Shown here piece after piece: positions 9,572 through 23,827 of a stretch of DNA of 64,000 nucleotides (the stretch's first letter is position 1; each line of letters begins with the position of its first letter). The stretch is from Mesorhizobium sp. SARCC-RB16n. GTDB taxonomy: Bacteria > Pseudomonadota > Alphaproteobacteria > Rhizobiales > Rhizobiaceae. The DNA is taken from positions 62,001 through 126,000 of the forward strand of contig NZ_ML703287.1 in NCBI RefSeq assembly GCF_008520305.1, read 5' to 3'. Made by a program: the position numbers and the translations under genes. The notes below the pieces were generated by a model, which searched no databases, was not told the DNA's origin, and saw nothing but the letters and a program-made list of their open reading frames with translations.

Positions 9572-9581
9572 GGATACGATC

Positions 9582-10394: not shown

Positions 10395-10532
10395 GGCCGG
10401 CCAGGCTACCGGGGCACGCCCCGTTGCCGTTCACATGATATGCCAGTGATCACGATGGCTTGGCCTGACCATTGTGTTGGTCCGGCGACTTGCCCATAAA
10501 GGTCCTGTTTTGCTCATGGACCGCATCATCCG

Positions 10533-12173
10533 TTGAAGAAGCTTTTTCCAATCGTCGCGTTCATTGCCGTTGCATTGATCAGCATGACCATGGCGGGATT
10601 CGCTTATTTCGCGACCCAGGAAGCCGCCCGCATCAAGTTCGAAGGGGCGGCCGATGACGCCCTCAACCGGATCGAGAGCCGCATCGACCTGCATCTGTCA
10701 CTGCTGCGCTCGACGCAGGCCCTGTTCGACGCGCGCAACGGCGATATTTCCCAGAACGAGTTCAAGGCCTTCTTCAAGGCGCTGGATGTCGATAGCAATT
10801 TCGCCGGCCTGCGCGGCATCGGCTTCCTGCGACTCGTCAAGACGGGCGACGAAGCTGCGGTCGAGCGCGACATCCTCCACGATTTCGGCGCCAGTCATCC
10901 GGTCTATCCGGACACGACCCAGCCCTGGCGCACGCCGATAGCGCTTTTTGAGCCGCTGGATCCGTCCAACCAGGCAAGCATCGGCTACGACATGTTCAGC
11001 GAGCCGGTGCGGCGCGCGGCAATCGAAAAGGCGATGGCCGACGACCAGCAGCATGCAAGCGGGCTGGTGCAGCTCGGCCAGGGCACGGGCGCCGCGCAGA
11101 CCTTCACCGGCTTCCTGGTCTTCGTGCGGCTCAATGTCGAAACGGCGCCGGAGGTCATCAACGCGTCGCGATCCTCGACCGCCGGCTTTCTCTATGCGGC
11201 CTTCCGAGCCCGGGACCTGTTCCAGATCGCGCTCAGCCGTGCGCCGCTGCTGCCGGTCAACACAGAGATCTATGACGGAGCGGTGAACAGCGACAATCTG
11301 CTGTTCCGCTCGGAGACGCCACCGGCTTCATCCTTGGGAAACCCTCTGCTGGTCACCCGCAAGATGACCGTGGCGGGGCGCCCTTGGACCGTGCTGTTCA
11401 GGCCGACGAGTGCCTTCTCTCAGCCGTCTTCGCGCGCCATCCCCGTGATGCTGGGGCTGTTCGGCCTGCTCCTGGCCGGCACCATCGCGTTGGTGGCGCG
11501 TTATCAGGAGCGGGCCTATGACGCGGTGTCGGCCTTGCACGAGACAACGGAAAAGAGCCTGCTCGAGAAGGACCTGATGCTGCAGGAGATGAAGCATCGC
11601 ATCAAGAATTCGATCACCAGGGTGCTGGCGATCGCGCGGCAGACGGCATCACGGGCAACCGACGTTCATGAGTTCTCCGCTTCCTTCTCGGCCAGGCTGC
11701 AGGCGATGGCCGCTTCGCAGGACATGTTGACGCGCTCACGCTGGCAGAAAGCCGATCTTGCCGATCTGTTGCGCATCGAACTCGGCCAGGTGTTCGGCAA
11801 GGAGCTGCCGGAGGGGCTGCTGTCAGGCCCGGAGGTGCTGCTTGACGAAACCACGACGCAGGCGCTTGGCCTGACCTTTCATGAACTCGCCACCAATGCG
11901 CTGAAATATGGTGAAGCCGGCAATTCCGCCAATTCGCTGAGGAGTGACTGGGCGCTCAAGGTGGACTGGTCGCTGGAAGGGCGCGGGCGGGAGAGGACGT
12001 TGACGCTGAACTGGCGGGAGGCCGGAAAGAAGAAAGTCGAGGCGCCGGCCGAGACCGGATTCGGCACCAAGCTGATCGACCTCAACGTCACGCGCGAATT
12101 GCGCGGCACGATCAAGCGCGATTTCCAGGCTGACGGCCTGAAGGTGGAAATCAAGATACCGTTGACTGCTTGA
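10533..12173 (+). CDS. CHASE-domain HWE/HisKA_2 sensor histidine kinase
   Basis: This 546-residue membrane kinase has an N-terminal membrane span (residues ~5-28), a periplasmic CHASE-type ligand-binding domain (~70-270, with LRGIGFLRLV and IGYDMFSEPVRRAAIEKAM), a second span (~305-325), a HisKA_2/HWE dimerisation helix (MLQEMKHRIKNSITRVLAIARQ, phospho-His in MKHRIKN) and an ATPase domain (TFHELATNALKYG, then GFGTKLID). I start at a TTG at 10533; no in-frame ATG gives the N-terminal span. Kinases of this class often feed PhyR, whose gene is 3 kb away. The ligand is unknown. The upstream gap 10395-10532 shows no gene. Confidence 0.87.
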   Translation: MKKLFPIVAFIAVALISMTMAGFAYFATQEAARIKFEGAADDALNRIESRIDLHLSLLRSTQALFDARNGDISQNEFKAFFKALDVDSNFAGLRGIGFLRLVKTGDEAAVERDILHDFGASHPVYPDTTQPWRTPIALFEPLDPSNQASIGYDMFSEPVRRAAIEKAMADDQQHASGLVQLGQGTGAAQTFTGFLVFVRLNVETAPEVINASRSSTAGFLYAAFRARDLFQIALSRAPLLPVNTEIYDGAVNSDNLLFRSETPPASSLGNPLLVTRKMTVAGRPWTVLFRPTSAFSQPSSRAIPVMLGLFGLLLAGTIALVARYQERAYDAVSALHETTEKSLLEKDLMLQEMKHRIKNSITRVLAIARQTASRATDVHEFSASFSARLQAMAASQDMLTRSRWQKADLADLLRIELGQVFGKELPEGLLSGPEVLLDETTTQALGLTFHELATNALKYGEAGNSANSLRSDWALKVDWSLEGRGRERTLTLNWREAGKKKVEAPAETGFGTKLIDLNVTRELRGTIKRDFQADGLKVEIKIPLTA

Positions 12174-12245
12174 AGGACAGGAAGCCGTTCTGAGACGACG
12201 CCAAGCATGGCGGCAGGCGAACCGGCGACCTGAACTCTAAAGCAA

Positions 12246-12279
12246 GGGGAAGCGGAGCCGGTTGCGGTCCCGCTTCCCC
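12246..12279. terminator. Stem-loop between convergent genes
   Basis: GGGGAAGCGG (12246-12255) and CCGCTTCCCC (12270-12279) form a perfect 10-base stem between the stop codons of the kinase (plus) and the lipoprotein (minus). There is no clear T-run on either strand, so termination is likely but not certain. Confidence 0.45.
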
Positions 12280-12291
12280 CAGATTATCGGA

Positions 12292-12537
12292 TCAGTTGCA
12301 GCGGGCCCAGTGGATCGTACCGTCAGCGTGGCGATACTTGCAGCGGCCAGTTTGCACGTTACGGTACAACAAACCAGACCCGGCGCCCACAGCCGCGCCG
12401 ATCAGCGCACCCTTGCCGCCGCCGACCAGGCCGCCGACACCCGCGCCGATCAAACCGCCGCCGACGACGTCCTGCTCGGTCGTGGTGCAGCCGCTGACAG
12501 CAACCACCGCAACCATGGCAATAAGTATTTTCCGCAT
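12292..12537 (-). CDS. Small glycine-zipper lipoprotein
   Basis: This 81-residue protein starts with a lipoprotein signal peptide and lipobox (MRKILIAMVAVVAVSGC), so it should be anchored to the outer membrane. The middle is a glycine zipper (GGGLIGAGVGGLVGGGKGALIGAAVGAGSG cut into GxxxG repeats), as in the 17 kDa antigen/YMGG families, and the tail has a Cys pair (GRCKYRHADG...ARCN). GAGGAGCGACTCT precedes the ATG. The role is unknown beyond envelope structure. No EcfG-type promoter is visible in front of this gene, unlike its neighbours. Confidence 0.82.
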   Translation of the reverse strand: MRKILIAMVAVVAVSGCTTTEQDVVGGGLIGAGVGGLVGGGKGALIGAAVGAGSGLLYRNVQTGRCKYRHADGTIHWARCN

Positions 12538-12619
12538 AGAGTCGCTCCTCACTTGTGTCCACACTTTAGTAAGCTCCAACCGCCATTTAGCACGAAACGA
12601 CGGCCTTTGCTGCTCCAAT

Positions 12620-12946
12620 TTATTGTTGGCTAAGGGGGTCTTTTTCTGGGCGGATCGTGTTCGATGCCATGACGAGGTTGGAAATCGCCAACGAAGCGTC
12701 AAGGCTACCGTCTGGCCGCACCTTCCAGACAATTTGATCGTAGTCGTCCTCCAACGCAGGATCGACCGCGAGGCATTTGGCTACGACATGCTGCGCTTGG
12801 CCCTGCACATCGCCCATCGCGAAGGGGCGCTCAGCGGTGCATTCATCAGCAGTCTCAAAAACACTGACGGGCACGTGCAATTCCCGACATTCGGCCATCG
12901 TGTTCGAGCAGCCGATCACCAGCAACAACGCGGCTATGTGTTCCAT
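12620..12946 (-). CDS. Small secreted protein of unknown function
   Basis: This 108-residue protein begins with a signal-like hydrophobic segment (MEHIAALLLVIGCSNTMAEC) and has Cys at about residues 13, 20, 36 and 59. I do not recognise a family. Support for it being a real gene comes from context: a perfect EcfG-type promoter (GGAAC-N17-CGTT) ends 23 bases upstream of its start, and it lies in a run of minus-strand GSR genes. It may be a lipoprotein (IGC) or an exported protein. Confidence 0.6.
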   Translation of the reverse strand: MEHIAALLLVIGCSNTMAECRELHVPVSVFETADECTAERPFAMGDVQGQAQHVVAKCLAVDPALEDDYDQIVWKVRPDGSLDASLAISNLVMASNTIRPEKDPLSQQ

Positions 12947-12969
12947 GACAGGTGTCCTCTGGCCGCAAT

Positions 12970-12995
12970 AACGGACCAGATCGTCGAAAAGTTCC
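12970..12995 (-). promoter_or_regulatory. EcfG (general stress sigma) promoter for the 12620-12946 gene
   Basis: On the minus strand GGAAC (12995-12991) and CGTT (12973-12970) are separated by 17 bases, matching the -35/-10 consensus of alphaproteobacterial EcfG sigma factors. The predicted leader is about 20 bases. Confidence 0.7.
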
Positions 12996-13121
12996 TGTCA
13001 TCCCAACGAGATTACGCGAATAGCTCGGAGAAAGCGCGGCTCCTCACGGTCGGAGGCGAGGCGGCGTTGACCGACCGGCGACTTCAACAGACACGCACTG
13101 TTGAGGAGAGCAGGACCTAAG

Positions 13122-13298
13122 TCAGGTCAGCTGCCAGAGAAGCGCGAGCAACATTATCGCGGCCAAGGCAAGAACGATCCCCTTCATCAAGCGCTTACCT
13201 GCTTCCGGGGGCGTTTTTACGAAGGATTCGGATTCCAGAAATTCGCCCATCGAGATACGGGCGGCTTGCTCCAATCTGTTCATGTCGGCGATCGTCAA
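13122..13298 (-). CDS. Small tail-anchored membrane protein, unknown function
   Basis: This 58-residue protein, easily missed because of its length, has a ~35-residue soluble N-terminal part (MNRLEQAARISMGEFLESES is the start of the ATG form) and one C-terminal membrane span (MKGIVLALAAIMLLALLW) with almost nothing after it, so it should be tail-anchored in the inner membrane. I prefer the TTG at 13298 because GGGAGGA lies six bases before it; the ATG at 13283 gives 53 residues but has no ribosome site. It lies between two GSR-controlled genes. I recognise no family. Confidence 0.6.
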   Translation of the reverse strand: MTIADMNRLEQAARISMGEFLESESFVKTPPEAGKRLMKGIVLALAAIMLLALLWQLT

Positions 13299-13431
13299 GA
13301 CATTCCTCCCGTACCGCGCTGCAAGCCCGCCAACAATGTTCCAAGTCGGGGCAGGTTCCGGCGGTATCTGGGAAAAACAGCATCCGCCCTTATGGTGAAC
13401 AGCCGGTTAAGTATCGCTGCTTGCCTGGCTG

Positions 13432-14466
13432 TCACTGCGTCTCGAAATTGCTCTGCGGAACGACAAGGCGGTATTTAAGGTGGCCGTCGCCGATATCGAG
13501 GTTCGCGGTTCCGTTCAGAGACGCAGGCACCACCCGCTCCAACGCGACGCTGCCGAATCGCTTCTGACCGCTCCCGTCGTCGTTGGTCCCTATCGTTTCG
13601 GTCCACGTCAAAGACAGGGCGACCTCCCCCGTGGCGGCGGCGTTGAGGTCGGCGGTGACCTCGACGAAACCGTCCGGTCGGGACAGGGCGCCGTAGCTGA
13701 CGGAGTTGACGGCGAGTTCGTGCATCGCCAGGCCAATATGCAGCGCGGCGTTGGGATTGAGGTAGGGATTGGCGCCACGGAAACGAAGGCTGTGCGACGG
13801 GTTCGCCCCGTAGCGGCCGAGTTGGCTGGCCACGAGGTCATGAAGGGCCGCCCCTCGCCAGTTGGAGGATGTCACCAGATCCTGGGAGGAGGCCAGCGAC
13901 TGCAGCCGGCCGCGGAAGCGCATCAGGAAGTCGCCGATGCTGTTTGAATAGCGACCGGTCTGGGTCGCGATGCTCTGGATGATGGCCAGCAGGTTCTTCG
14001 AGCGGTGGCTGACTTCGCGCAGCAGTGTCGTCAATGTCTGTTCGCGCCGCTTCTGCTCGGTCGTCTCGACCATGGTGGTGACGACGCCTTGCACATTGCC
14101 GTCGTCGCTTCGGTCGGCATCGACCCAGATCTGAAACCAGCGAACGCCATTCTCGACCGGAACACTGATTTCAAGACGCTGAGCATCGCCGGTCGCAACC
14201 ACATCGCGCTTGGCGGCGTTGATGCGGTCGGCCTGCGCCATCGGCAGGATATCTTTCCCGTCGGTATCATCGGAGACCCAGGGCGCGCGCATGTTGCGAG
14301 CCCATACGGTCTTCATCTCGCGATCCTGATAAAGGACGGAAATGCCGGCATTGTGCAGTGCGTGGAGAAGAGCGCGCCCAAGCTGCATGCCGCTTTCTGC
14401 GGGATGCATGGCGATGACTTCATCGGTCCGCGCGCCTTCCGTTCTATCTGGAGTCCTGGAGCGCAT
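13432..14466 (-). CDS. PAS/HWE (HisKA_2) sensor histidine kinase, candidate PhyR kinase
   Basis: This 344-residue soluble kinase has a PAS-like sensor (residues ~30-140, ending VVTTMVETTEQKRREQ), a HisKA_2 helix with phospho-His (LLREVSHRSKNLLAIIQSIA, ~150-170), and an HWE-type ATPase domain (GLAMHELAVNSVSYGALS, ~240-260). It has no membrane span. The start at 14466 lies about 23 bases after the predicted start point of an EcfG promoter, supporting it. Kinases of this family are the known activators of PhyR in other Alphaproteobacteria, and phyR is 0.5 kb away, so it probably acts in the same circuit with positive feedback. That link is inference. Confidence 0.88.
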   Translation of the reverse strand: MRSRTPDRTEGARTDEVIAMHPAESGMQLGRALLHALHNAGISVLYQDREMKTVWARNMRAPWVSDDTDGKDILPMAQADRINAAKRDVVATGDAQRLEISVPVENGVRWFQIWVDADRSDDGNVQGVVTTMVETTEQKRREQTLTTLLREVSHRSKNLLAIIQSIATQTGRYSNSIGDFLMRFRGRLQSLASSQDLVTSSNWRGAALHDLVASQLGRYGANPSHSLRFRGANPYLNPNAALHIGLAMHELAVNSVSYGALSRPDGFVEVTADLNAAATGEVALSLTWTETIGTNDDGSGQKRFGSVALERVVPASLNGTANLDIGDGHLKYRLVVPQSNFETQ

Positions 14467-14495
14467 CGGTCAATCTGTCCACCCAACTCAGGCTG

Positions 14496-14520
14496 AACGG
14501 CTCACTGCCGAATGGGTTCC
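14496..14520 (-). promoter_or_regulatory. EcfG promoter for the PAS/HWE kinase gene
   Basis: On the minus strand GGAAC (14520-14516) is followed after 16 bases by CGTT (14499-14496). The start codon of the kinase is 30 bases downstream. Confidence 0.75.
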
Positions 14521-14628
14521 CTCTAAAGCGGTCCGCCGGACGGTGTCCATTGAAGGACGCCGCCCGGCGGTGGCTGGAAACCGTTTGAGGGGTGCGGCTT
14601 CCAGTGTTCGCCTGATAAGCCGCCAGGC

Positions 14629-14793
14629 TCACGCCCGCCTGAACAGGCCGGCCAGAAGCGAAATGACCAGGAAAGCGAGGAAGATGAAGAACAATATCTG
14701 TGCGATACCGGCGGATGTGCCGGCGATGCCGCCGAAACCAAGCGCGCCGGCAATAATCGCCACGACGAGAAATACGAGCGCCCAGTAAAGCAT
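14629..14793 (-). CDS. DUF1328-family small membrane protein
   Basis: This 54-residue protein reads [20 protein letters not shown] at the start and has two hydrophobic segments with small residues ([12 protein letters not shown]) between them, ending LLAGLFRR. That is the standard form of the DUF1328/YtjA family of inner-membrane proteins, often stress-induced. A strong AAGGAG site lies at the right distance before the ATG. An EcfG promoter ends 29 bases upstream, so it should be a GSR gene. Function is unknown. Confidence 0.88.
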
Positions 14794-14822
14794 GGTTCAT
14801 CTCCTTCGAATGACGCGATAAA

Positions 14823-14847
14823 AACGTGGGTAGATGCGGTTTGTTCC
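14823..14847 (-). promoter_or_regulatory. EcfG promoter for the DUF1328 gene
   Basis: On the minus strand GGAAC (14847-14843) and CGTT (14826-14823) are 16 bases apart and the -10 continues as CGTTTT. The predicted leader is about 20 bases. Confidence 0.78.
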
Positions 14848-14999
14848 CACCATTCGCCGAAAAAGACGGTGCTTGCAAATCGTTCCGGGCGGCGTGGGGC
14901 TGGAAATTCGCCGGTGGCCGATCCGGCTTGTCAAAAAGGCCGCCGGATGCGTCGCATCCGGCGGCCTGATGGCCTTGTCCGGCTTCCGGAGACCGCGAT

Positions 15000-15794
15000 C
15001 TATGCGGCAGCCTTGGCCTGCCGATCGAAGAACAGCGCCTGGCTGATCAGCGCCTTCACCATGTCGGGATTGAACGGCTTGGTCACCAGGAAGGCGGGTT
15101 CGGGCCGCTCTCCGGTCAGGAGACGCTCGGGAAAGGCGGTGATAAATATGACCGGCACCGATGTCGACGAGAGGATTTCGTTCACCGCCTCGATGCCGGA
15201 GCTGCCGTCGGCGAGCTGGATGTCGGCCAGCACCATCCTCGGTCGGGTCTTGCCGAACATAGTCACCGCTTCGGCATGGGTGCGCGCCGTTCCCACGACC
15301 CGATGACCGAGGCTCTCGACCATCTCCTCTATGTCCATGGCGATCAGCGGTTCATCCTCGATGATCAGCACGTCGGTCGCCACCTGACGGGAAATCTCGT
15401 TGCTTGCCTGGGCGAGCAGCTCAGAGAACTGCTGGTCGCCGACATCGAGGATTTCGGCCGCCTCGTCCTCGCTGAAACCTTCGACGGCAACCAGCAGGAA
15501 GGCCTGGCGGGGAAGCGGGGCGATCGCATTGAGATTTGCTGCAGCGCGCTGCTCCCAAGCCGACTGTGTCTGCTCTTGCGGAACGCGGATGGCAACGGAG
15601 GTGAAGAGCTTGGCGAAAACCTTGTACAAGGCGATCCGGTCACTCGACGCCTCCGGGAAGATGTCGACATCGGCAATGATCGCCTCAAGCATTGCGGCGA
15701 CCAGCGCGTCGCCGCTCTCCTGCGATCCCGAGACGGCACGCGAGAAGCGCCGCAGGAACGGCAGATGCGGAGCGATGGTGGCGGACAAGCTCAT
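15000..15794 (-). CDS. phyR: General stress response regulator PhyR
   Basis: This 264-residue protein has an N-terminal sigma-factor-like domain (~1-135, ECF sigma2/sigma4 mimic, with LPRQAFLLVAVEGFSEDEAAEIL) fused to a C-terminal receiver (acidic residues IIEDEPLIAMD, phospho-Asp in MVLADIQLADG near residue 191, Lys in FLVTKPF). When phosphorylated it sequesters the anti-sigma factor NepR and frees EcfG. I chose the ATG at 15794, which matches the family start; the open frame further upstream runs across the promoter. It is divergent from nepR-ecfG, and both sides have EcfG-type promoters. Confidence 0.97.
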   Translation of the reverse strand: MSLSATIAPHLPFLRRFSRAVSGSQESGDALVAAMLEAIIADVDIFPEASSDRIALYKVFAKLFTSVAIRVPQEQTQSAWEQRAAANLNAIAPLPRQAFLLVAVEGFSEDEAAEILDVGDQQFSELLAQASNEISRQVATDVLIIEDEPLIAMDIEEMVESLGHRVVGTARTHAEAVTMFGKTRPRMVLADIQLADGSSGIEAVNEILSSTSVPVIFITAFPERLLTGERPEPAFLVTKPFNPDMVKALISQALFFDRQAKAAA

Positions 15795-15865
15795 AATGGA
15801 CGTCTCCCTCAGATGACGCGGTTGGACGGATTGCAGGCCATGCTGATCGCAAGCCCCGTGAGAAC

Positions 15866-15890
15866 AACGCCGCTTTTCCGAAAAAGTTCC
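15866..15890 (-). promoter_or_regulatory. EcfG promoter for phyR
   Basis: On the minus strand GGAAC (15890-15886) and CGTT (15869-15866) are separated by 16 bases. Its -35 box is back to back with that of the nepR promoter: GTTCC-N8-GGAAC at 15886-15903. The phyR start codon is 72 bases beyond the -10. Confidence 0.82.
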
Positions 15891-15898
15891 GCCGATAT

Positions 15899-15923
15899 GG
15901 AACGAATCGGGCGCAGTGGCGTT
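15899..15923 (+). promoter_or_regulatory. EcfG promoter for nepR-ecfG
   Basis: GGAAC (15899-15903) is followed after 16 bases by CGTTTT (15920-15925). The nepR start is ~88 bases downstream. Autoregulation of nepR-ecfG by EcfG is the known circuit in related bacteria. Confidence 0.82.
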
Positions 15924-16010
15924 TTGAACGTCGGGATGGGCAACCAGACGAGGGTGTCGCTTGCCTTGTGTTGCGTTGAGCGGCTTGAGTTCTGGGAATA
16001 TAAGGGCGAA

Positions 16011-16214
16011 ATGAAGGATATGACAAAAGATATTCTGGCTGGCGCCGCGGGCGGGCGCCGGAACGGCGTCGGCGACCCTCTGGGGCCGAACTCCGAAATC
16101 GGACGCAAACTCAAACAATATTATGACGAGCTGGTCTCCGACAATGTGCCGGATCGCTTCGCCCAGTTGCTCAGCCAACTGGAAAAGGCCGAACCCGCGC
16201 AGAAGAAGGACTGA
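16011..16214 (+). CDS. nepR: Anti-sigma factor NepR
   Basis: This 67-residue cytoplasmic protein holds EcfG inactive and is in turn bound by phosphorylated PhyR. The family core is unmistakable (GPNSEIGRKLKQYYDELVSD, followed by NVPDRFAQLLSQLE, residues ~26-58). I chose the ATG at 16011, preceded by AAGGGCG; a second in-frame ATG at 16020 is possible. ecfG starts three bases after the stop, so the two are translated together and kept in balance. Confidence 0.95.
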   Translation: MKDMTKDILAGAAGGRRNGVGDPLGPNSEIGRKLKQYYDELVSDNVPDRFAQLLSQLEKAEPAQKKD

Positions 16215-16217
16215 GGC

Positions 16218-16769
16218 ATGGCAGCGGTCTCCCAAGGCTTCAAGACCGATCTGCTTGGGGCAATCCCGAGCTTGCGGGCTTTTGCCGTGTCGCTGACGCA
16301 GAATGCGGACAAGGCCGACGACCTCGTTCAGGAAACGCTGGTCAAGGCCTGGGACAAGCATGAGAGCTTTCAGCCCGGCACCAATCTCAAGGCATGGCTT
16401 TTCACGATCCTGCGCAACGAGTTCTATTCGCAGATGCGCAAACGCGGCCGCGAGGTGCAGGACAGCGACGGCATCATGACGGCCCGGCTTGCGGTGCATC
16501 CGGCCCAGCACGGCCAGCTCGACCTCAAGGATTTTCGCGGCGCTCTTGAGCAGCTGCCGGAGGACCAGCGCGAAGCCATCATCCTGATCGGGGCATCGGG
16601 CTTCTCCTATGAGGAGGCCGCCGAAATCTGCGGTTGCGCGGTCGGAACGATCAAGAGCCGCGTCAGCAGGGCCCGCACACGCCTGCAGGAAATCCTGAAA
16701 ATCTCAGGCGAAGACGAGTATGGTCCCGATGCCATTTCGGCCCAGGTCACGGGGACGGCGGCACATTGA
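16218..16769 (+). CDS. ecfG: General stress ECF sigma factor EcfG
   Basis: This 183-residue sigma factor has region 2 (SLTQNADKADDLVQETLVKAW, then AWLFTILRNEFYSQMRKRGR, ~25-80) and region 4 (LEQLPEDQREAIILIGASG, then SYEEAAEICGCAVGTIKSRVSRAR, ~110-160), the ECF15/EcfG pattern. It directs polymerase to GGAAC-N16/17-CGTT promoters, nine of which are visible in this part of the window. It is coupled to nepR and divergent from phyR, the classical GSR arrangement. Confidence 0.96.
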   Translation: MAAVSQGFKTDLLGAIPSLRAFAVSLTQNADKADDLVQETLVKAWDKHESFQPGTNLKAWLFTILRNEFYSQMRKRGREVQDSDGIMTARLAVHPAQHGQLDLKDFRGALEQLPEDQREAIILIGASGFSYEEAAEICGCAVGTIKSRVSRARTRLQEILKISGEDEYGPDAISAQVTGTAAH

Positions 16770-16812
16770 AATGCGGGCCGGATAACGCAATTCGAATGTA
16801 GTCGCGCCGGCA

Positions 16813-17262
16813 TCAGGCCGCGGAGCCGCGACCGCAGGCCAGCGCCACGGCTTCGACGAGGTCCTCGCCTGAATAGGGCTTGGTGACCAGCCTCACCCCG
16901 GGGAAGGATGCCTTGATCTCGTCCGCATCGGAATAACCGGACGCAAACACGAACGGAACGCCGGTCTCCCGCAGGCCCGCGGCGAATTCGAGTGTTGAGG
17001 CGCCACCCAGCATCAAATCGACAATGGCTGCGTCGAAACGCATCGCGATCCTTCGGCCATCAATCTCGGCCAGGTCGCGGGCAACCACCACCTCCTCCGC
17101 ACCGTGGTCACGGCAGAGTTGCTCGACATCCATGGCTATGAGGAATTCATCCTCCAAGACAAGAATGCGCAATCCGTCAAGTAATTGAGGCACAGGCAAT
17201 TGCTCCTTGAAACGCCGGGAGTCATGATCGCAATTTGGTGTCTTGTCATTTAAAAAAGACAT
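16813..17262 (-). CDS. Single-domain response regulator (FAT GUY-like)
   Basis: This 149-residue protein is one receiver domain without an output domain: acidic residues in VLEDEFLIAMD, phospho-Asp in AAIVDLMLGG near residue 85, switch motif FVFASGYSD and Lys in LVTKPYSG. The FASGY motif resembles the FAT GUY family of alphaproteobacterial single-domain regulators that act in the GSR phosphorelay, for example SdrG in Sphingomonas. I chose the ATG at 17262; earlier in-frame codons run into the divergent crp-like promoter. Placement next to ecfG supports a role in relaying phosphate to or from PhyR; this is inference. Confidence 0.85.
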   Translation of the reverse strand: MSFLNDKTPNCDHDSRRFKEQLPVPQLLDGLRILVLEDEFLIAMDVEQLCRDHGAEEVVVARDLAEIDGRRIAMRFDAAIVDLMLGGASTLEFAAGLRETGVPFVFASGYSDADEIKASFPGVRLVTKPYSGEDLVEAVALACGRGSAA

Positions 17263-17333
17263 GCGCCGGCCGATCTCGGCAAGCGTAAAAACGGACCTGC
17301 CGACGGAAGGCCTTTGCAAGGGGGGGTGTCTAA

Positions 17334-18095
17334 ATGCCGAGCCAGATCGGGCGCGCTTTTTCAAGCCGGCAATATCCTTGCGAGCAATGCCCGTTGCGGC
17401 CCCTGCCGGTATTCAGGGAGTTCGAGAAATCGGAGCTGGCCTTCATCGGCAAGTTCAAGAAGGGAGAACTCGCGGTCGACAAGGGTGCCACGGTCCTCGT
17501 GGAAGGAAGCCACAGCGCGCACCTCTACACCGTGCTGTCCGGTTGGGCATTCCGCTATAAGCTGCTGCAGGACGGCCGACGACAGATCCTCAATTACCTC
17601 ATGCCCGGCGATCTCATCGGCTTGCAAGGCAGCGTCATGGGGGAAATGCAGCATTCCGTGGAGGCCCTGTCGCCAATGCTGCTTTGTGTGTTCGAACGCG
17701 ACAATCTGCATGAACTCTACCGCAGCCATCCGGGTCTCGCCTACGACATCACCTGGATCGCGTCGCGCGAAGAGCGGATGCTGGACGAGAACCTGCTCAG
17801 TGTCGGCCGCCGCAGCGCGATCGAGCGCGCCGCCTATCTCATCGCCTTCATCGCCAGCCGCGCCAAGGTTGTCGGACTGAACGGCAAGCAGTCCATCCAG
17901 ATACCGATCACGCAGCAACACATCGCCGATACGCTTGGACTGTCTCTGGTTCACACCAACAAGACGATCCGCAAGCTGATGGACCGCCAGCTGATCGTCT
18001 GGCGCGACGGCGGTTGCGGGGTCGTCGACAATGAAGGCTTGAAGCAGCTCGCCGGCTGGGAAGGGCTAGGCGAAGGCCGCCGGCCGCTGATCTGA
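17334..18095 (+). CDS. Crp/Fnr-family transcriptional regulator
   Basis: This 253-residue regulator has a cyclic-nucleotide-binding-like beta-roll (VEGSHSAHLYTVLSGWAFRYKLLQDGRRQILNYL split across ~55-90, with MPGDLIGLQGS) and a C-terminal winged helix (PITQQHIADTLGLSLVHTNKTIRKL, ~195-220). An N-terminal CEQCPLR pair recalls Fnr-type proteins, but I do not see the four-Cys set needed for an oxygen-sensing cluster. The ATG at 17334 follows a run of Gs that can act as a ribosome site. It is divergent from the single-domain response regulator. Target genes are unknown. Confidence 0.88.
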   Translation: MPSQIGRAFSSRQYPCEQCPLRPLPVFREFEKSELAFIGKFKKGELAVDKGATVLVEGSHSAHLYTVLSGWAFRYKLLQDGRRQILNYLMPGDLIGLQGSVMGEMQHSVEALSPMLLCVFERDNLHELYRSHPGLAYDITWIASREERMLDENLLSVGRRSAIERAAYLIAFIASRAKVVGLNGKQSIQIPITQQHIADTLGLSLVHTNKTIRKLMDRQLIVWRDGGCGVVDNEGLKQLAGWEGLGEGRRPLI

Positions 18096-18164
18096 CGTAG
18101 CGCCTCTTGCCAGAGGCGGATCGGGTGCGCGTGACCGGGTTTTCGGGTAGTTTGTCCCGGCATC

Positions 18165-18189
18165 GGAACCTTGAGACGCACGGCGCGTT
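18165..18189 (+). promoter_or_regulatory. EcfG promoter for the yqjDE-like operon
   Basis: GGAAC (18165-18169) and CGTT (18186-18189) are separated by 16 bases. The DUF883 gene begins 31 bases after the -10. Confidence 0.78.
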
Positions 18190-18219
18190 TGAAATCGAGC
18201 AATCACAAGGAGTTAAGCA

Positions 18220-18546
18220 ATGGCAACCGCCGCAGGGAAGACCGCCAACGAAGCACGGGCGAATCAGGATCTCGAAGCCGACATCAGGCAGTTGAAGGCC
18301 GATATCGACAAGCTCACCAGGCAGCTGGCCAAGACCGGTGAACACGGCTACGGCACAGCGCGCCGAGCGGCGGCCGATGGTGTCGAGCAGTTGCGTGCCC
18401 AAGGCGAGGCCGCCTTCGACAGCTTGCGCGGCAACGCCAGGGATATCGAGGCGCAGATGGTGGCAAGCGTACGCGAAAAGCCGGTGACGTCGCTGGCAAT
18501 CGCCGCTGGCGTCGGCTTCCTGTTCGCGCTGCTCGCGCGTCGCTAG
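18220..18546 (+). CDS. DUF883 (ElaB/YqjD)-family membrane protein
   Basis: This 108-residue protein has an Ala/Lys-rich coiled-coil N-terminal part (DLEADIRQLKADIDKLTRQL, ~22-42) and one C-terminal membrane span followed by Arg-Arg (SLAIAAGVGFLFALLARR). This is the pattern of YqjD/ElaB proteins, C-tail-anchored inner-membrane proteins made in stress or stationary phase and reported in E. coli to bind ribosomes. AAGGAG precedes the start. The EcfG promoter upstream explains stress control, and a holin-like membrane gene follows 10 bases later, as in yqjD-yqjE. Confidence 0.88.
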   Translation: MATAAGKTANEARANQDLEADIRQLKADIDKLTRQLAKTGEHGYGTARRAAADGVEQLRAQGEAAFDSLRGNARDIEAQMVASVREKPVTSLAIAAGVGFLFALLARR

Positions 18547-18556
18547 TTCCACCAAG

Positions 18557-19018
18557 ATGGGGCTGCTGGTTTCCCTGCTCTCGGGTTTCGCCTCGGGTGA
18601 AACAATGGCTGCAGTGCGGCGCGCGCGCACCGCAGCCATTGTCTATGCGCTTGCCGCGCTGGCGGCATTCTGCGGCCTCGGCTTCCTGGTCGGGGCGGCG
18701 TATATCTGGACGTCGATGCGGTATGGATCGCTGGCTGCCGCGGTTGGTTTCGGTGCCGGCTTCCTGGTGATCGCGGGCCTTGTTCTTCTGATCCACCGGC
18801 TGATGTCGGGTGCCCGGGTCCGTCGCGAGGCCAGGCGGCGCAAGGCCGACATGAAGGGGATCGGCATTACGGCAGCGCTTGCCGTGCTGCCGACATTGCT
18901 CAAGGGAAAAGGTGGGCTCGGAGTTATTCTCGGTCCGGCAGTGGCACTCGCGGCCTATGCCATCTACCGCGAGAACGTGAAGTCCGACACCGACCGTCCG
19001 GATGCGGGCGAGGGGTAG
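18557..19018 (+). CDS. Phage-holin-like (YqjE-type) membrane protein
   Basis: This 153-residue protein has two strong membrane spans (~27-50 and ~60-85) and a basic loop (RVRREARRRKADMK), with a further hydrophobic stretch near residues 115-140. The arrangement resembles the holin_3_6/YqjE family that accompanies YqjD-like genes, although the C-terminal part is longer than in YqjE. It is co-transcribed with the DUF883 gene from an EcfG promoter. Function is unknown. The following stretch 19019-19164 has no gene. Confidence 0.72.
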   Translation: MGLLVSLLSGFASGETMAAVRRARTAAIVYALAALAAFCGLGFLVGAAYIWTSMRYGSLAAAVGFGAGFLVIAGLVLLIHRLMSGARVRREARRRKADMKGIGITAALAVLPTLLKGKGGLGVILGPAVALAAYAIYRENVKSDTDRPDAGEG

Positions 19019-19164
19019 CCGCGGCGGCGGCCTGCCGCATATCACTTCGACAGATCCTCGAGCGCCGCGCGCGCAACCTCGGCCGGCAGACCAGACACTG
19101 TTTCACCTGCTATCCAAACCAAGTTCCCACGGCTTTGCCTTGATGTCCTTGGCGGCCTGCAGCC

Positions 19165-19189
19165 GGAACCATCCTTGCGAGGGACCGTT
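19165..19189 (+). promoter_or_regulatory. EcfG promoter for the 19247-19447 gene
   Basis: GGAAC (19165-19169) is followed after 16 bases by CGTT (19186-19189). The gene starts about 57 bases downstream. Confidence 0.72.
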
Positions 19190-19246
19190 ACCCGAGCGTG
19201 ATTTGCCGATCGCGCCAGCCGACGCGAAACCAAACGAGGACCCGCC

Positions 19247-19447
19247 ATGACCAAGAACATTTCTGAAAACAAGGCGCGTCAGGGGCGATGGGGTTGGCAT
19301 GGGTTCCAAATCCTGATCGCCGGGCTGCTCCTGGCGCTCATCGCCTGGGGCGTCGCTGAGATTTACGGCGAGTTGATCAAGGCACCGAACAGCGACGAGC
19401 AACATGTCCCCACGCCACCCAGCACCGGCCCGGCGCCCTCAGGCTGA
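19247..19447 (+). CDS. Small single-span membrane protein, unknown function
   Basis: This 66-residue protein has a basic N-terminus (SENKARQGRWGWHG), one membrane span (FQILIAGLLLALIAWGVAEIY, ~20-41) and a Pro-rich, probably periplasmic tail (HVPTPPSTGPAPSG). AGGA precedes the ATG at a reasonable distance. I recognise no family. The EcfG promoter upstream makes it a probable GSR gene and supports that it is expressed. Confidence 0.68.
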   Translation: MTKNISENKARQGRWGWHGFQILIAGLLLALIAWGVAEIYGELIKAPNSDEQHVPTPPSTGPAPSG

Positions 19448-19476
19448 AGTAAGCGCTTCCGGGGCTTCACTCCGCA

Positions 19477-20397
19477 TCAGGCAGCCTTTGCCTCGGCGAC
19501 GCTGGCAGGCACCAGCACATTGAGCGCTCCTGGCTTGATTTCGATCGTCGTCTCACGATCGAGCCTGACCAGTTCGCCGTCCATCACGGCGCGGAACTTC
19601 CTGCCGCCGGAAAGGATTTTCACGGTCGCCCGATCGGCCTGATGGATTTCGACATGTTCGTTGTCACGCCACCTGCCGCGCACCACGTTGAACAAAAACT
19701 TCACCAGTTCGGCGCGCTGCCGCGCTACCGTGACGTAAATGCCAAGCACGCCGCCGGCTGGGTTGTCGGCATAGGGGAGGTGACCTTCGCCGAACAGGTT
19801 GTTGGTCACGCCGAGACCGGATATGCGGGCAGTCATCTCCGCTTCGCCGATGCCAAGCGTAACGTTCATTGCTGGCGGGTTCTTGATCGTCGCCCAAGCC
19901 GCCTTGGCCGAAGCACCGATCTTGCCCAGGCGCGACCCGAATTCCATCCCCTGGCGCAGCTGCACCAACTTGGCATGCATGCCGATCGATAACTGATGGA
20001 CGAACGGCTGGCCGTTGGCCGTGGCCATGTCGACGGCGATGATTTCGCCGTCGGCGAAGGCGTCCAACGCGGCATCGAGCGACTGCGGAATGCCGAGACC
20101 CCGCGCAAACAGGTTCATCGTGCCGGCCGGCAATATGGCGAGCGCCTTTTTCTTGCCCATCAGCCTTGCAGCCGCGGCTGAGATGGTGCCATCGCCGCCG
20201 CCGGCGAGCACGACATCGACGGAGCGGCGCGACACGGCGTTGTCGAGGGATTCCACGACGTCCTTGCCGGCAACGATGTCGATGCTGAGAGAGTGGCCCG
20301 CCGATTCCAGCGTCTGAAGCATCCGGTCGGAAAAGGCCGCGAGATCGGTGGTGCGCAAGGTGCCGCCGTCCCGGTTCAGCACCGCTGCAAATTTCAT
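19477..20397 (-). CDS. Diacylglycerol kinase-like lipid kinase
   Basis: This 306-residue protein has the DAGK catalytic domain: the GGDGT motif (VVLAGGGDGTISAAA, ~62-76), the following ILPAGTMNLFARGLGIP segment, and a C-terminal beta-rich domain. Family members phosphorylate diacylglycerol, sphingosine-like lipids or related alcohols; the substrate is not predictable here. It lies between GSR genes with its own EcfG-type promoter upstream, which suggests that membrane-lipid turnover is part of the stress programme. It is convergent with the small gene at 19247. Confidence 0.88.
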   Translation of the reverse strand: MKFAAVLNRDGGTLRTTDLAAFSDRMLQTLESAGHSLSIDIVAGKDVVESLDNAVSRRSVDVVLAGGGDGTISAAAARLMGKKKALAILPAGTMNLFARGLGIPQSLDAALDAFADGEIIAVDMATANGQPFVHQLSIGMHAKLVQLRQGMEFGSRLGKIGASAKAAWATIKNPPAMNVTLGIGEAEMTARISGLGVTNNLFGEGHLPYADNPAGGVLGIYVTVARQRAELVKFLFNVVRGRWRDNEHVEIHQADRATVKILSGGRKFRAVMDGELVRLDRETTIEIKPGALNVLVPASVAEAKAA

Positions 20398-20449
20398 GCC
20401 CCGCTCCGCTCAATCAGAACCTGGCCCGGGCGCGCCCAGCCAGAGGCTG

Positions 20450-20475
20450 AACGCGGCGGGCTAGGAAAAGGTTCC
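20450..20475 (-). promoter_or_regulatory. EcfG-type promoter for the lipid kinase gene (17-base spacer)
   Basis: On the minus strand GGAAC (20475-20471) and CGTT (20453-20450) are 17 bases apart. The gene begins 53 bases beyond the -10. Confidence 0.65.
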
Positions 20476-20587
20476 GGTTGGGCCGCAATCCAAGGCCAGA
20501 ATCCAAGGCCGGAATCCAGGGTTGCGTCAGCTGGCGGTCGCGCATCCGTTTGGTGGGTCTTGGTCTCGAACGCCGCGGTTTTTTGTC

Positions 20588-20612
20588 GGAACAACAGCAT
20601 GATAACGACGTT
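20588..20612 (+). promoter_or_regulatory. EcfG promoter for the PRC-barrel protein gene
   Basis: GGAAC (20588-20592) is followed after 16 bases by CGTT (20609-20612). The start codon is about 90 bases downstream. It is divergent from the lipid kinase promoter, 113 bases away. Confidence 0.76.
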
Positions 20613-20702
20613 GTGAACCTGTAGAGACGCCGCGTCTGGTCTCCCGACCGACGGGTCAAGCGGATGCGGTGTGTACGAAATCAGGCACGAGGAGAGATTA
20701 TC

Positions 20703-22013
20703 ATGATCCGCACCCTTTTAGCGACGACCGCCCTTGCGACAATGGTTGCGACCGGCGCCTTCGCGCAGAGCGCTGCAACCCCAGCCCCCGCGAATCCACC
20801 TGCCGCTCAGCAGCCGGCCGCGACTGCTCCGGTACCGCGCGCTGAAGGCAGCATCGTCACCAATATTATCGGTGCATCGGTCTATAATGGCACCGGCGAC
20901 AATGCCGAGAATATCGGCAAGGTCACTGACGTCGTCTTTGACAAGGACGGCATGGCGAAATCCGTCGTCATCGGCGTCGGCGGCTTCCTTGGCGTCGGAA
21001 CCAAGAACGTCGCCTTCGACTACGACAAGCTGCAATGGGCCGAGAAGAACGGTGACCGCTGGCTGGTGGCGCAGACAACCAAGGACGAGCTGAAGGCGCA
21101 TCCGGAGTTCGACAGCAAAGCTTATGCGCCGGCCCCAGCGGCATCGACAACTGCCCAGGCGCCGGTCACGTCGACCGACACAGCCCAGAAGCCCGCGGAG
21201 GCGAACGCAGAACCGGTGAAACAGGCTGATGGCAACCTGGCCACAAACATCCTGGGCGAAAACGTCTACAACGGGACAGGCGACGATGCCCAGAAGATCG
21301 GCGATGTCAACGACATCGTGCTGAACAAGGAAGGCAAGGCGCAATCGCTGATTATTGGCGTGGGCGGCTTCCTGGGCATGGGCGAGAAGAACGTCGCCTA
21401 TGATTTCGCGAAGGCGCAGTGGGCACAGAAGAACGGCAACCGCTGGCTGGTGGCGCAGACCACCAAGGAAGAGTTGCAGGCGTTGCCGGACTTCAACCGA
21501 AAGGCCTATGATCCGGCGCCGGCGACGACGGCATCGAACGAGCCGGCGGCCACCGCGCCGGCAGCGGCGCCTTCCACCACCACCGCTCCCGCCGCCGCTC
21601 CGGCGGACAAGACGGCGGCGGCTCCGGCTGACGCCACGGCACCCGACCAGACCCAGACCGCAGCCATCGACAAGTCGAAGCTGACGGAGATGCCGATTGG
21701 CGAGATCAGGGCTGACGATCTGAAGGGCACGACAGTCTATGGCGCCAACGACGCCAAGGTTGGCGAGATCGGCGATGTCGTGCTGACGCCCGACAAGAAA
21801 ACCGATGCCGTGATCGTCGATGTCGGTGGGTTCCTCGGGATCGGCTCGAAGGAGGTCGCGGTCGGCATGGATAACTTGAAATTCATGACCGACAAGAACG
21901 GCAAGAAGTACCTGTATACGACCTTCACCAAGGAACAGCTCGAGAAGCAAGCGGCTTACGACAAGGGCACCTACGCCCAGAAGCGCGACGAGCAGCGTCT
22001 GATGGTTCGGTAG
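20703..22013 (+). CDS. Exported protein with three PRC-barrel domains
   Basis: This 436-residue protein has a signal peptide (MIRTLLATTALATMVATGAFAQ) and three PRC-barrel repeats (~50-130, ~175-260, ~330-420), each with a GDV/VGGFLGxG core: VIGVGGFLGVGTKNVAF, IIGVGGFLGMGEKNVAY and IVDVGGFLGIGSKEVAV. Ala/Pro/Thr-rich linkers separate them. PRC barrels bind partner proteins or surfaces; in periplasmic form they are common in rhizobia, where they are often stress-induced. I start at 20703, where GAGGAGA gives a ribosome site and a signal peptide begins. Repeats one and two are the most alike, indicating internal duplication. Confidence 0.86.
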   Translation: MIRTLLATTALATMVATGAFAQSAATPAPANPPAAQQPAATAPVPRAEGSIVTNIIGASVYNGTGDNAENIGKVTDVVFDKDGMAKSVVIGVGGFLGVGTKNVAFDYDKLQWAEKNGDRWLVAQTTKDELKAHPEFDSKAYAPAPAASTTAQAPVTSTDTAQKPAEANAEPVKQADGNLATNILGENVYNGTGDDAQKIGDVNDIVLNKEGKAQSLIIGVGGFLGMGEKNVAYDFAKAQWAQKNGNRWLVAQTTKEELQALPDFNRKAYDPAPATTASNEPAATAPAAAPSTTTAPAAAPADKTAAAPADATAPDQTQTAAIDKSKLTEMPIGEIRADDLKGTTVYGANDAKVGEIGDVVLTPDKKTDAVIVDVGGFLGIGSKEVAVGMDNLKFMTDKNGKKYLYTTFTKEQLEKQAAYDKGTYAQKRDEQRLMVR

Positions 22014-22042
22014 GCATGGACACGGGGCGGTAGGGAAATCCC

Positions 22043-23602
22043 TTACCGCCCCGCTTGCGACCTGGCATATCCAGCTACTCCATTTTCGGTCAGTTCCGAG
22101 AGGGCAAGCGACTGGTCGAGATGTTCGGCCCGCCAGGCAAGCAGCCTTTCGGCGAATTCCAGTCGGGTGGACCGGTGCGCCGGACTGCCGGCGAGGTTCT
22201 TCAATTCGCTGGGGTCGTCCTCCATGTCGAAAAGCACGGGCGGCAGGTCGCCGCCAAAATGTACGTATTTGAATTTCTGTGTGCGGATGACAGCGAGATT
22301 GCACTGGCGCGAGGTCATGCCGAAGTGCCGTTCGGCTTCGCCGTCCGCGATCGAGCGAAAGTCGAACTCCCAGTGCGCGGCGTCGCGCCAGACGGCGGGA
22401 GTTCCACCGCTCAGGAAGGGTTTCAGCGAGCACCCGTCAAGATGCGGTTCGGGAGCCACGCCGAGCAGATCGATGAGCGTCGGCAAAATGTCCACCGCTT
22501 CGGTGAAGCGATCGACGGTGCTGCCGGCGGCCTTACGATGGCGTGGATCGCGGATGATCAGCGGGATGTGGTAGCTGCCGTCGAAATAGCCGCCCTTGCC
22601 CAGCATGAAATGGTCGCCCATCATTTCGGCGTGGTCGGAGGTGAGCACGATGATCGTGTTGTCCCACGCGCCTTCGGCCTTCAGCGCTTGCCATAGGCGG
22701 CCGAGCTGCGCGTCGACCTCCGAGATCATACCGTAGTAGATTGCTCGGATGCGGCGGAAATCGTCTTCGCTCCAGTCGTGTACCTTGCCTGTGGCGCTGG
22801 GGCGGAATTTTTCGCGTTTTTGCCGGCCGAGATCATAGGCGATGTAGGGGTGGCCCTGAGATTCGGCACGCCAACTTTCCGCGCGGTGAAAAGCGGGGCC
22901 GTCCGCCGGGTCGTATTGGGTGTTGTACGGTTCCGGCACGATGAAGGGCGGGTGCGGGCTGATGAAGGAAAGGTGCGCAAACCATGGCGCGGCCTCCTCT
23001 TGCTCGCCCAGCCAGCGGATGAACTCGCCGGCGAGGAAAGCCGTCGGCGTCTGGTCCTTCGAGTAGACGGGCGGTGCTTCAGTCACCGCGTCGTCCGCCT
23101 CGCCCACGGGACGATGGATGTCAGGACTTCCAGCGCTGGCATCGATGCCCTGCTGCTTCAGCCAGGACAACCACTGCTTCTGATGTTCGGGCAGCAATTG
23201 GCGCACCGTGAAGCCGGGCAGCACGCCTTCATAGCTGTGCAACCGTGGATCGGCCGGTGCAAGCTGGCGCGGATCGAGCGACACGTCGGTGTAGCCGAAC
23301 AAGGTCGGATCGTAGCCGACGCTGCGCGCAGCAAGCGCAACATTGCCGTGGCGGGCATCGAGCGGCGTACCGTTGCGGCAGACGCGGTTGTTCATCTGGT
23401 AGAGGCCTGTGTAGAGGCAGGCGCGCGCCGGCGAACACGGAGCCGCGCCACCGTAGTGGCGCTTGAACAGCACGCCTTCGGCGGCCAGCGCATCGGCATT
23501 CGGCGTCTTCACCTGGGGATGGCCGGCAGCCGACAGGCAATCGCCGCGCCACTGGTCGCAGGTGATGAGGAGGACATTTGGCCGCCTGCTTTTTCCAGTC
23601 AC
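22043..23602 (-). CDS. Sulfatase-superfamily hydrolase, probably phosphonate monoester hydrolase/arylsulfatase
   Basis: This 519-residue enzyme belongs to the alkaline phosphatase superfamily. It has the N-terminal metal site (LLITCDQWRGD), the C-x-P-x-R formylglycine signature (APCSPARACLYTG, Cys near residue 56) and the C-terminal metal site (IIVLTSDHAEMMGDH). Segments such as TGLYQMNNRVCRNGTPLD and the KYVHFGGDLPPVLFDM tail resemble Rhizobium phosphonate monoester hydrolase, which also cleaves sulfate and phosphate esters. No signal peptide is seen, so it is probably cytosolic. The start is a GTG at 23602 with GGGAGGGG upstream. The substrate is not predictable. Confidence 0.85.
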   Translation of the reverse strand: MTGKSRRPNVLLITCDQWRGDCLSAAGHPQVKTPNADALAAEGVLFKRHYGGAAPCSPARACLYTGLYQMNNRVCRNGTPLDARHGNVALAARSVGYDPTLFGYTDVSLDPRQLAPADPRLHSYEGVLPGFTVRQLLPEHQKQWLSWLKQQGIDASAGSPDIHRPVGEADDAVTEAPPVYSKDQTPTAFLAGEFIRWLGEQEEAAPWFAHLSFISPHPPFIVPEPYNTQYDPADGPAFHRAESWRAESQGHPYIAYDLGRQKREKFRPSATGKVHDWSEDDFRRIRAIYYGMISEVDAQLGRLWQALKAEGAWDNTIIVLTSDHAEMMGDHFMLGKGGYFDGSYHIPLIIRDPRHRKAAGSTVDRFTEAVDILPTLIDLLGVAPEPHLDGCSLKPFLSGGTPAVWRDAAHWEFDFRSIADGEAERHFGMTSRQCNLAVIRTQKFKYVHFGGDLPPVLFDMEDDPSELKNLAGSPAHRSTRLEFAERLLAWRAEHLDQSLALSELTENGVAGYARSQAGR

Positions 23603-23827
23603 TTGCGCTTACCCCTCCCAGCACGTTCCAATGCGAACATGGAGCCGATTTCGATCAACCGCGCAAGACCAGGGCTGTTAGGTGAATGGTGAACAAATAT
23701 CTTCTCGTCGTTCACTTTTAATGCACAGTCCATTCTGTGTTTGCCGCCTTTGCCATGGATGAAGGTATCCTCATATTGGCGTGGACAGCGGCGAGGCCGC
23801 ACAAACACCAAGGGAAGGAGCAAAGAC

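Follow-up and report, generated by a model that had tools for sequence, protein, structure and literature searches.

What does it mean for a rhizobial genome to carry nine copies of one promoter-type motif within 7.6 kb around the genes of its general stress response, and is the corresponding regulon itself clustered? The question is posed by a 64,000-base stretch of Mesorhizobium sp. SARCC-RB16n (contig NZ_ML703287.1, positions 62,001 to 126,000; hereafter the window), in which the motif GGAAC-N16/17-CGTT, made of a -35 box and a -10 box, surrounds phyR and nepR-ecfG. At a probability of roughly 0.88, we read this region as the Mesorhizobium general-stress control locus with conserved targets of its own alongside, which would make it a dense core within a regulon that is scattered for the most part.

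The first-pass annotation of this DNA had listed nine motif copies in 7.6 kb, seven with spacers of 16 and two of 17, each in front of a gene that it named, against a chance expectation of about 0.1. An exact pattern scan returned the same picture: the entire window holds nine sites, all inside 12970-20612 (12970-, 14496-, 14823-, 15866-, 15899+, 18165+, 19165+, 20450-, 20588+), with spacers of 17 at 12970 and 20450 and of 16 at the remaining seven, and every site aims at the gene named. Dinucleotide shuffles gave a mean of 0.87 matches per 64 kb (largest 4), or about 0.10 in 7.6 kb. All nine are oriented toward a start codon 24-91 bases away; expressed as coordinate differences, the end of CGTT precedes the start of the 12620 gene by 24, the HWE kinase and DUF1328 genes by 30 each, phyR by 72, nepR by 88, the yqjD-like gene by 31, the 19247 gene by 58, the lipid kinase by 53 and the PRC protein by 91 (with its start taken at 20703; a longer open reading frame (ORF) begins at 20664). 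When up to one mismatch was allowed, the window contained 17 matches versus 13.5 expected, so that as a set these are not commoner than chance. The nine exact sites look like EcfG-type promoters grouped around the phyR, nepR-ecfG and HWE-kinase genes, and the centre of the group is made up of the following elements (orthologue counts refer to the related loci described below):

13432-14466, minus strand: PAS/HWE histidine kinase (HWE_HK PF07536, 4.3e-23; PAS_4 below cut-off)
14496-14520, minus strand: EcfG-type promoter of the PAS/HWE kinase, exact match (site in 73/78 orthologues)
15000-15794, minus strand: phyR, anti-anti-sigma response regulator with sigma-like and receiver domains (PhyR_sigma2, PhyR_sigma-like, Response_reg; PF22029, PF22233, PF00072)
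15866-15890, minus strand: EcfG-type promoter of phyR, exact match (79/80)
15899-15923, plus strand: EcfG-type promoter of nepR-ecfG, exact match (79/80)
16011-16214, plus strand: nepR, anti-sigma factor (NepR PF18557, 1.2e-15)
16218-16769, plus strand: ecfG, general-stress sigma factor of the extracytoplasmic function type (Sigma70_r2, Sigma70_r4_2)

The locus contains a PhyR with both domains, a nepR gene immediately 5' of ecfG (3 bases from stop to start), divergent and promoter-bearing phyR and nepR-ecfG units, and a nearby HWE kinase, which is probably the phosphodonor of the PhyR pathway; judged by sequence, it has every tested feature of an alphaproteobacterial EcfG general-stress locus. 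The core PhyR/NepR/EcfG switch is textbook knowledge: upon stress, HWE kinases phosphorylate PhyR. According to the available part of one report, phosphorylated PhyR sequesters NepR and thereby frees EcfG, with phyR and nepR-ecfG themselves being EcfG-driven (PMC8103513). For both R. etli and S. granuli, GGAAC-N16-CGTT has been published as the EcfG motif, and the accessible sections of the same literature describe phyR and nepR-ecfG units driven by EcfG (PMC3892343, PMC7083833, PMC8103513, PMC3616915).

From the motif, its position, conservation, density and spacing, all of which are observed, we infer use by EcfG, induction and a physiological role. Freed EcfG-RNA polymerase would fire the GGAAC-N16/17-CGTT promoters in this region, amplifying its own signal through those of phyR, nepR-ecfG and the kinase, and would also drive six further units that mostly encode small envelope or lipid-related proteins, each keeping a promoter of its own instead of merging into one operon. 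Because these local targets are mainly small membrane, periplasmic and lipid-modifying proteins, their output, as far as families and hydrophobic segments indicate, looks like envelope protection.

Conservation of the sites was evaluated in a related set consisting of the best 80 of 547 confirmed phyR candidates, with up to 10 kb fetched on each side. The closest sequences are from Mesorhizobium, with a PhyR identity of 98-99% in the top five loci, and the block is 86-88% identical at the DNA level to L001, L002 and L004. When the 80 loci and the window were pooled, 712 exact sites fell inside a 10-kb block extending from -6.8 to +3.2 kb of the phyR start and 5 outside it (794 kb inside, 846 kb outside), whereas four control patterns, one reversed and three with permuted words, produced 6-31 matches in total over all 81 sequences; spacers of 15 and 18 were not enriched inside the block (4 and 2 matches). 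The synteny that the first-pass annotation had left to be checked in Mesorhizobium is thus present, the same genes and sites recurring in most of the 80 loci.

Orthologues were scored for an exact site within 400 bases upstream, after dropping loci where the gene was missing, incomplete or near a contig end. Ten units had sites in 80-100% of scorable orthologues, and seven neighbouring genes were nearly site-free (VOC 0/53, sulfatase 0/61, ABC 0/74, CHASE-HWE kinase 0/70 and the 13122 ORF 0/40 among them). Alignments of L001-L063, unselected for the motif and including a weak site at 13335, showed 93% conservation of box bases versus 59% for spacers and 58% for flanks. All 7 orthologues of the 19247 gene that lack the exact site read CATT in place of CGTT. 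CATT is therefore probably tolerated as a -10 variant, and since every exception at this gene carries it, exact-match counts probably understate the true number of sites; an initial reading of absent exact sites as lost control was dropped on the same grounds. The CATT tolerance also makes a plausible tenth promoter of the GGAAC-N16-CATT sequence at 13335-13359 on the minus strand, one base away from the motif and located 5' of a 58-codon ORF at 13122-13298.

That this neighbourhood is ancestral synteny only, clustered without function, is a serious possibility, though one that we lean against; it would be compatible with our reading of the sites themselves. Genes that are not targets are retained in the flanks too, best matches to the ABC, VOC and sulfatase genes being found in 76, 70 and 66 of the 80 loci, respectively. 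More distant loci of the order, represented by the top 20 among 27 strong phyR loci (20-kb neighbourhoods, phyR identity 51-74%), argue the other way. They contain 81 motif sites versus 7 matches to the reversed pattern and are rearranged, yet yqjD-like genes (present in 7 loci, with a site in 7/7) and crp (present in 8, with a site in 6) are still no more than 10 kb away from phyR, whereas neither the sulfatase nor the VOC gene of the flanks was found in any of the 20. The yqjD-like gene shares the strand of phyR in 6 of these 7 loci and is on the opposite strand in Mesorhizobium. DUF1328 was found in 11 distant loci and had a site in 6, CHASE-HWE kinases had a site in 0/13, and a yqjE-like match appeared in two loci at a relaxed E of 1e-3. 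Parts of the cluster thus recur, unevenly, at greater distance within the order, and a membership that outlasts rearrangement, with one promoter per gene, would mildly favour selection on the neighbourhood over frozen synteny, the sample being small.

Several observations weigh against reading the region as a conserved target cluster. The limits of the 10-kb block were fixed after the sites had been viewed. Within the related set, the conserved member crp is without a site in 11/55 relatives and no longer has one in the window, and the PAS/HWE kinase lacks a site in 5/78 orthologues. Clustering is uneven among the 20 distant loci, with at least 5 sites in 7 and at most 2 in 7; exact sites precede phyR in 11/20 and nepR in 9/13, and best matches to the PAS-HWE kinase, DAGK and PRC genes carry one in 3/14, 0/4 and 1/5 cases. 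Finally, no counterparts of the 19247, 12620, 13122-ORF, Gly-zipper and yqjE-like genes were found in the same 20 loci at E 1e-4.

That certain sites serve ReC64/GsrN-like small RNAs in place of the listed ORFs is improbable. In R. etli an EcfG-dependent small RNA adjoins this locus (PMC3892343) and others are predicted in further Rhizobiaceae (PMC5869019), as far as the accessible text of the two papers goes. On the other hand, every exact site precedes an ORF by 24-91 bases and none in the window is without one, and all ten tested ORFs change most at third codon positions. Substitutions at the three positions were 0.16/0.10/0.48 for the 12620 gene (51 sequences), 0.24/0.19/0.44 for the 19247 gene and, in the weakest case, 0.35/0.27/0.51 for the 13122 ORF (20 sequences); 13 sequences of the response regulator at 16813 and one of the 12620 gene, which contained internal stops, were dropped from the test. 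An Rfam scan of positions 9000-24000 of the window returned sub-threshold matches, with none at the gathering score.

Whether the cluster is the regulon was addressed in the genomes of Mesorhizobium relatives of the window's strain. Five of these contain 131, 175, 132, 107 and 145 exact matches, versus 83, 118, 88, 132 and 82 expected from other spacings (per two spacings), so that the motif is in excess in four and in deficit in one, G004. Other spacings and permuted words served as background instead of the reversed pattern, which proved unsuitable: each of the five genomes has more copies of it than of the motif (160-249 versus 107-175), a surplus that we attribute to a difference in composition.

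For M. ciceri WSM1271 (G003), 100 of 132 matches, located up to position 4.84 Mb of the chromosome, were classified with a home-made, codon-usage-based gene caller that misses short genes; sites were considered promoter-placed if they lay in intergenic DNA or at a start, in the correct orientation and no more than 400 bases from the start. Outside the cluster (n = 90), 61 matches were promoter-placed, 18 coding, 4 coding near a start and 7 otherwise intergenic, whereas 13.5% of random positions in the same stretches, or about 12 of 90, would be promoter-placed. The cluster itself contributes 10 promoter-placed sites, 8 assigned automatically and 2 added from known short genes that the caller had missed; its share is accordingly 10/71 (~14%), ~17% after subtraction of the 12 chance sites, or 8/69 by the caller alone. 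In a second genome, G001, 38 of the 87 sites listed for contigs other than C7 were picked by hand, and 26 of these, spread over many contigs, were promoter-placed. Pfam searches with 40 of the 61 outside targets of G003, also hand-chosen and mostly near the start codon, gave matches at E 0.001 for 32, a few of them below the curated cut-off. These include Ku, Usp, CsbD, DJ-1/PfpI, DUF892, DUF3008 and, twice, BA14K, as well as a PAS/HWE kinase, a transglutaminase, an AI-2E transporter and others without obvious stress link; Ku and CsbD are among the EcfG-dependent genes of S. granuli in the available part of that study (PMC7083833). We take the motif to read the EcfG regulon, which would be mostly scattered with a dense core at this locus.

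A regulon wholly clustered on the chromosome is, on these numbers, very improbable. In its favour, the cluster is conserved and its site density in G003 is ~87-fold that of the remaining scanned chromosome; against it, 61 of the 71 promoter-placed sites of G003 lie elsewhere, and 26 of the 38 sites sampled on other contigs of G001 are promoter-placed too. The first-pass suggestion that the regulon itself is clustered consequently survives in part, as conserved packing around the core far above background, and its whole-genome density comparison, made here in relatives, likewise yields a high local density with most promoter-placed sites elsewhere; its description of the regulon as contiguous is not borne out. 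Finally, the idea that the matches are artefacts of chance or composition, with true promoters at the core genes only, can draw on the deficit in G004 and is practically dismissed by the recurrence of sites at orthologous genes, the conserved boxes flanking variable spacers and the unclustered permuted controls.

Two further observations concern the distribution of the motif. In G001, contig C7 contains a second dense region (15339-106051, L227-L231) with 13 exact sites in 91 kb, of which 12 lie outside called genes and 1 at a called start, and 9 are promoter-placed. Genes downstream encode Ku, a GT20 enzyme (trehalose-phosphate synthase type), DUF892, a PAS/HWE kinase, HlyD and a multiheme cytochrome. 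The region has a G+C content of 0.597 versus 0.630 in other sampled stretches, and parts of it align at 68-83% to G003, where the related stretch is at 3.895-3.925 Mb (L210-L212). Separately, non-promoter matches with spacers of 16 and 17 number 29 in the 4.84 Mb of G003 versus ~55 predicted from other spacings, which may hint at selection against stray intragenic EcfG sites.

At the centre of the locus, the -35 boxes of the phyR and nepR-ecfG promoters face each other across a gap of 8 bp. The gap is 8-10 bp long in 64/64 Mesorhizobium-like sequences (L001-L063 and the window; 8 in 12, 9 in 48 and 10 in 4; standard deviation (s.d.) 0.5), whereas the comparison pair formed by the lipid kinase and PRC promoters in the same loci is separated by 25-120 bp (59 sequences, s.d. 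23). Its sequence is not conserved, with 39 distinct 9-mers and a mean pairwise identity of 44%. Among the 17 loci L064-L080, the pair is present in 15: nine gaps measure 8-10 bp, four 18-19, and there is one each of 6 and 22. Of the 27 order-wide phyR loci, 13 have facing -35 boxes between phyR and ecfG that are at most 60 bp apart (one -10 mismatch allowed), nine of them at 8-9 bp, two at 29 and two at 32, and 14 have none that near; of 16 further class-wide NepR loci five have such a pair at the same place, with gaps of 6, 8, 8, 8 and 40. Divergent pairs found by pattern across the class have gaps from 4 to 32, many at 12-14, and only 4 of these 17 pattern-found loci are at phyR, G003 itself being one. 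A periodicity of the gap by helical turns, in which 18-19 bp and 29 or 32 bp would stand for one and two additional turns, was considered and dropped as unproven, values of 6, 22 and 40 and the pattern-pair range of 4-32 occurring as well.

We read the gap as constrained in length, the switch having a back-to-back promoter at its core. Assuming ~32 bases from -35 box to start, the two start points would be ~73 bases apart, with polymerases touching or overlapping. Two EcfG polymerases at this site would then be expected to interfere or co-operate, and either mutual exclusion or co-operation would tie together the synthesis of PhyR and NepR-EcfG. A bolder proposal, which we advance tentatively and consider doubtful as it stands, is that a length-locked EcfG platform, its gap kept near 8-9 bp in many lineages despite a drifting sequence, couples the two syntheses mechanically and sets the gain of the partner switch, with the cluster of independently promoted targets maintained by evolution as a "first wave" beside the sigma source. 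In the parts of the open-licence literature covered by the search, no mention was found of the -35 gap spacing of the core divergent promoters.

The remaining elements in and beside the block are listed below.

12292-12531, minus strand: Gly-zipper (YMGG) small protein, without an EcfG site of its own (site in 2/69 orthologues)
12620-12946, minus strand: 12620 gene, 108-residue Cys-containing protein with a hydrophobic N-terminus and VIGC, without Pfam family
12970-12995, minus strand: EcfG-type promoter (spacer 17) of the 12620 gene (65/66)
13122-13298, minus strand: 58-codon ORF with TTG start and hydrophobic C-terminus, weakly conserved, of uncertain coding status
13335-13359, minus strand: candidate degenerate EcfG promoter GGAAC-N16-CATT (equal form in 11/40 orthologous upstreams)
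14629-14793, minus strand: DUF1328 small membrane protein, 54 residues (Pfam)
14823-14847, minus strand: EcfG-type promoter of the DUF1328 gene (79/80)
16813-17262, minus strand: single-domain response regulator with a PFVFASGY segment (Pfam; site in 1/79)
17334-18095, plus strand: Crp/Fnr-type regulator (Pfam; EcfG site in 44/55, decayed in the window, where neither box is intact)
18165-18189, plus strand: EcfG-type promoter of the yqjD/yqjE-like pair (77/78)
18220-18546, plus strand: DUF883/YqjD-like protein (Pfam match below cut-off, E 1.5e-05)
18557-19018, plus strand: YqjE-like membrane protein, second gene of the pair, named from position and hydrophobicity
19165-19189, plus strand: EcfG-type promoter of the 19247 gene (60/67 exact, 7 with CATT)
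19247-19447, plus strand: 19247 gene, 66-residue protein with a single hydrophobic segment, without Pfam family
19477-20397, minus strand: DAGK/YegS-type lipid kinase (Pfam)
20450-20475, minus strand: EcfG-type promoter (spacer 17) of the lipid kinase (62/66)
20588-20612, plus strand: EcfG-type promoter of the triple-PRC protein (54/54)
20703-22013, plus strand: triple PRC-barrel protein with signal-like N-terminus (PF05239, 3 stretches)

Searched against Pfam, the yqjE-like, 12620, 13122 and 19247 proteins had zero matches at E 0.001. The VIGC of the 12620 protein is presumably a lipobox-like motif, and the Gly-zipper gene is possibly read through from the 12620 unit. Resembling FATGUY regulators in its PFVFASGY stretch, the response regulator at 16813-17262 may belong with proteins that act in the general-stress pathway of other bacteria, as the available part of one paper describes (PMC5964349); it has an internal stop within the aligned stretch in 13/63 relatives. 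The site-free CHASE-HWE kinase gene (10533-12173, plus strand) adjoins the cluster, and its best match in one related locus (L067) lies inside it in the opposite orientation. Upstream of the 58-codon ORF, positions 13360-13410 hold a conserved block, TTAACCGGCTGTTCACCATAA followed by GATGCTGTTTTTCCCAGA, which is alike in 8 relatives and which we take to resemble a CtrA-type site with one mismatch.

Like R. etli ecfG1-phyR, S. meliloti rpoE2-rsiA1-rsiB1 and C. crescentus sigT, as portrayed in the sections of the reports that were available (PMC3892343, PMC8103513, PMC3616915, PMC7083833), the Mesorhizobium locus encodes the same three proteins in divergent phyR and nepR-ecfG units, with a kinase gene alongside and EcfG-type promoters on both core units. 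It differs from them in six further units with sites of their own (seven with crp, in relatives) within ~5 kb of phyR, and in the fixed 8-10 bp gap between the core -35 boxes. In S. meliloti, SMc01508/SMc01509, numbered beside the rpoE2 locus, and the PRC-barrel gene SMb20522 rise on RpoE2 overexpression, but SMb20522 is located on pSymB, away from the locus (PMC6180224, available part). The accessible text on S. melonis Fr1 similarly reports a Crp-type regulator and a PRC-barrel gene that are EcfG-dependent and carry a GGAAC-N17-20-GTT site, whereas their -10 boxes are not CGTT and neighbourhood to the core locus is not described there (PMC6599016).

A wider parallel is offered by E. coli, where YqjD is a member of the RpoS regulon and ElaB is reportedly under RpoS as well: a YqjD-family membrane protein is again placed under a general-stress sigma factor, although sigma factor and promoter are unrelated. 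A core locus surrounded by conserved EcfG targets, each under its own promoter, found no mention in the portions of the open-licence literature consulted, a body of work outside which most subscription journals lie.

In summary, the core switch is known, and the conserved target neighbourhood together with the length-locked core promoter makes this locus a variant of it. The neighbourhood supplies a short list of conserved, mostly unstudied envelope genes whose products are likely to appear early in the response, and the fixed spacing of 8-10 bp provides a simple, testable hypothesis for how the levels of PhyR and NepR-EcfG may be balanced.

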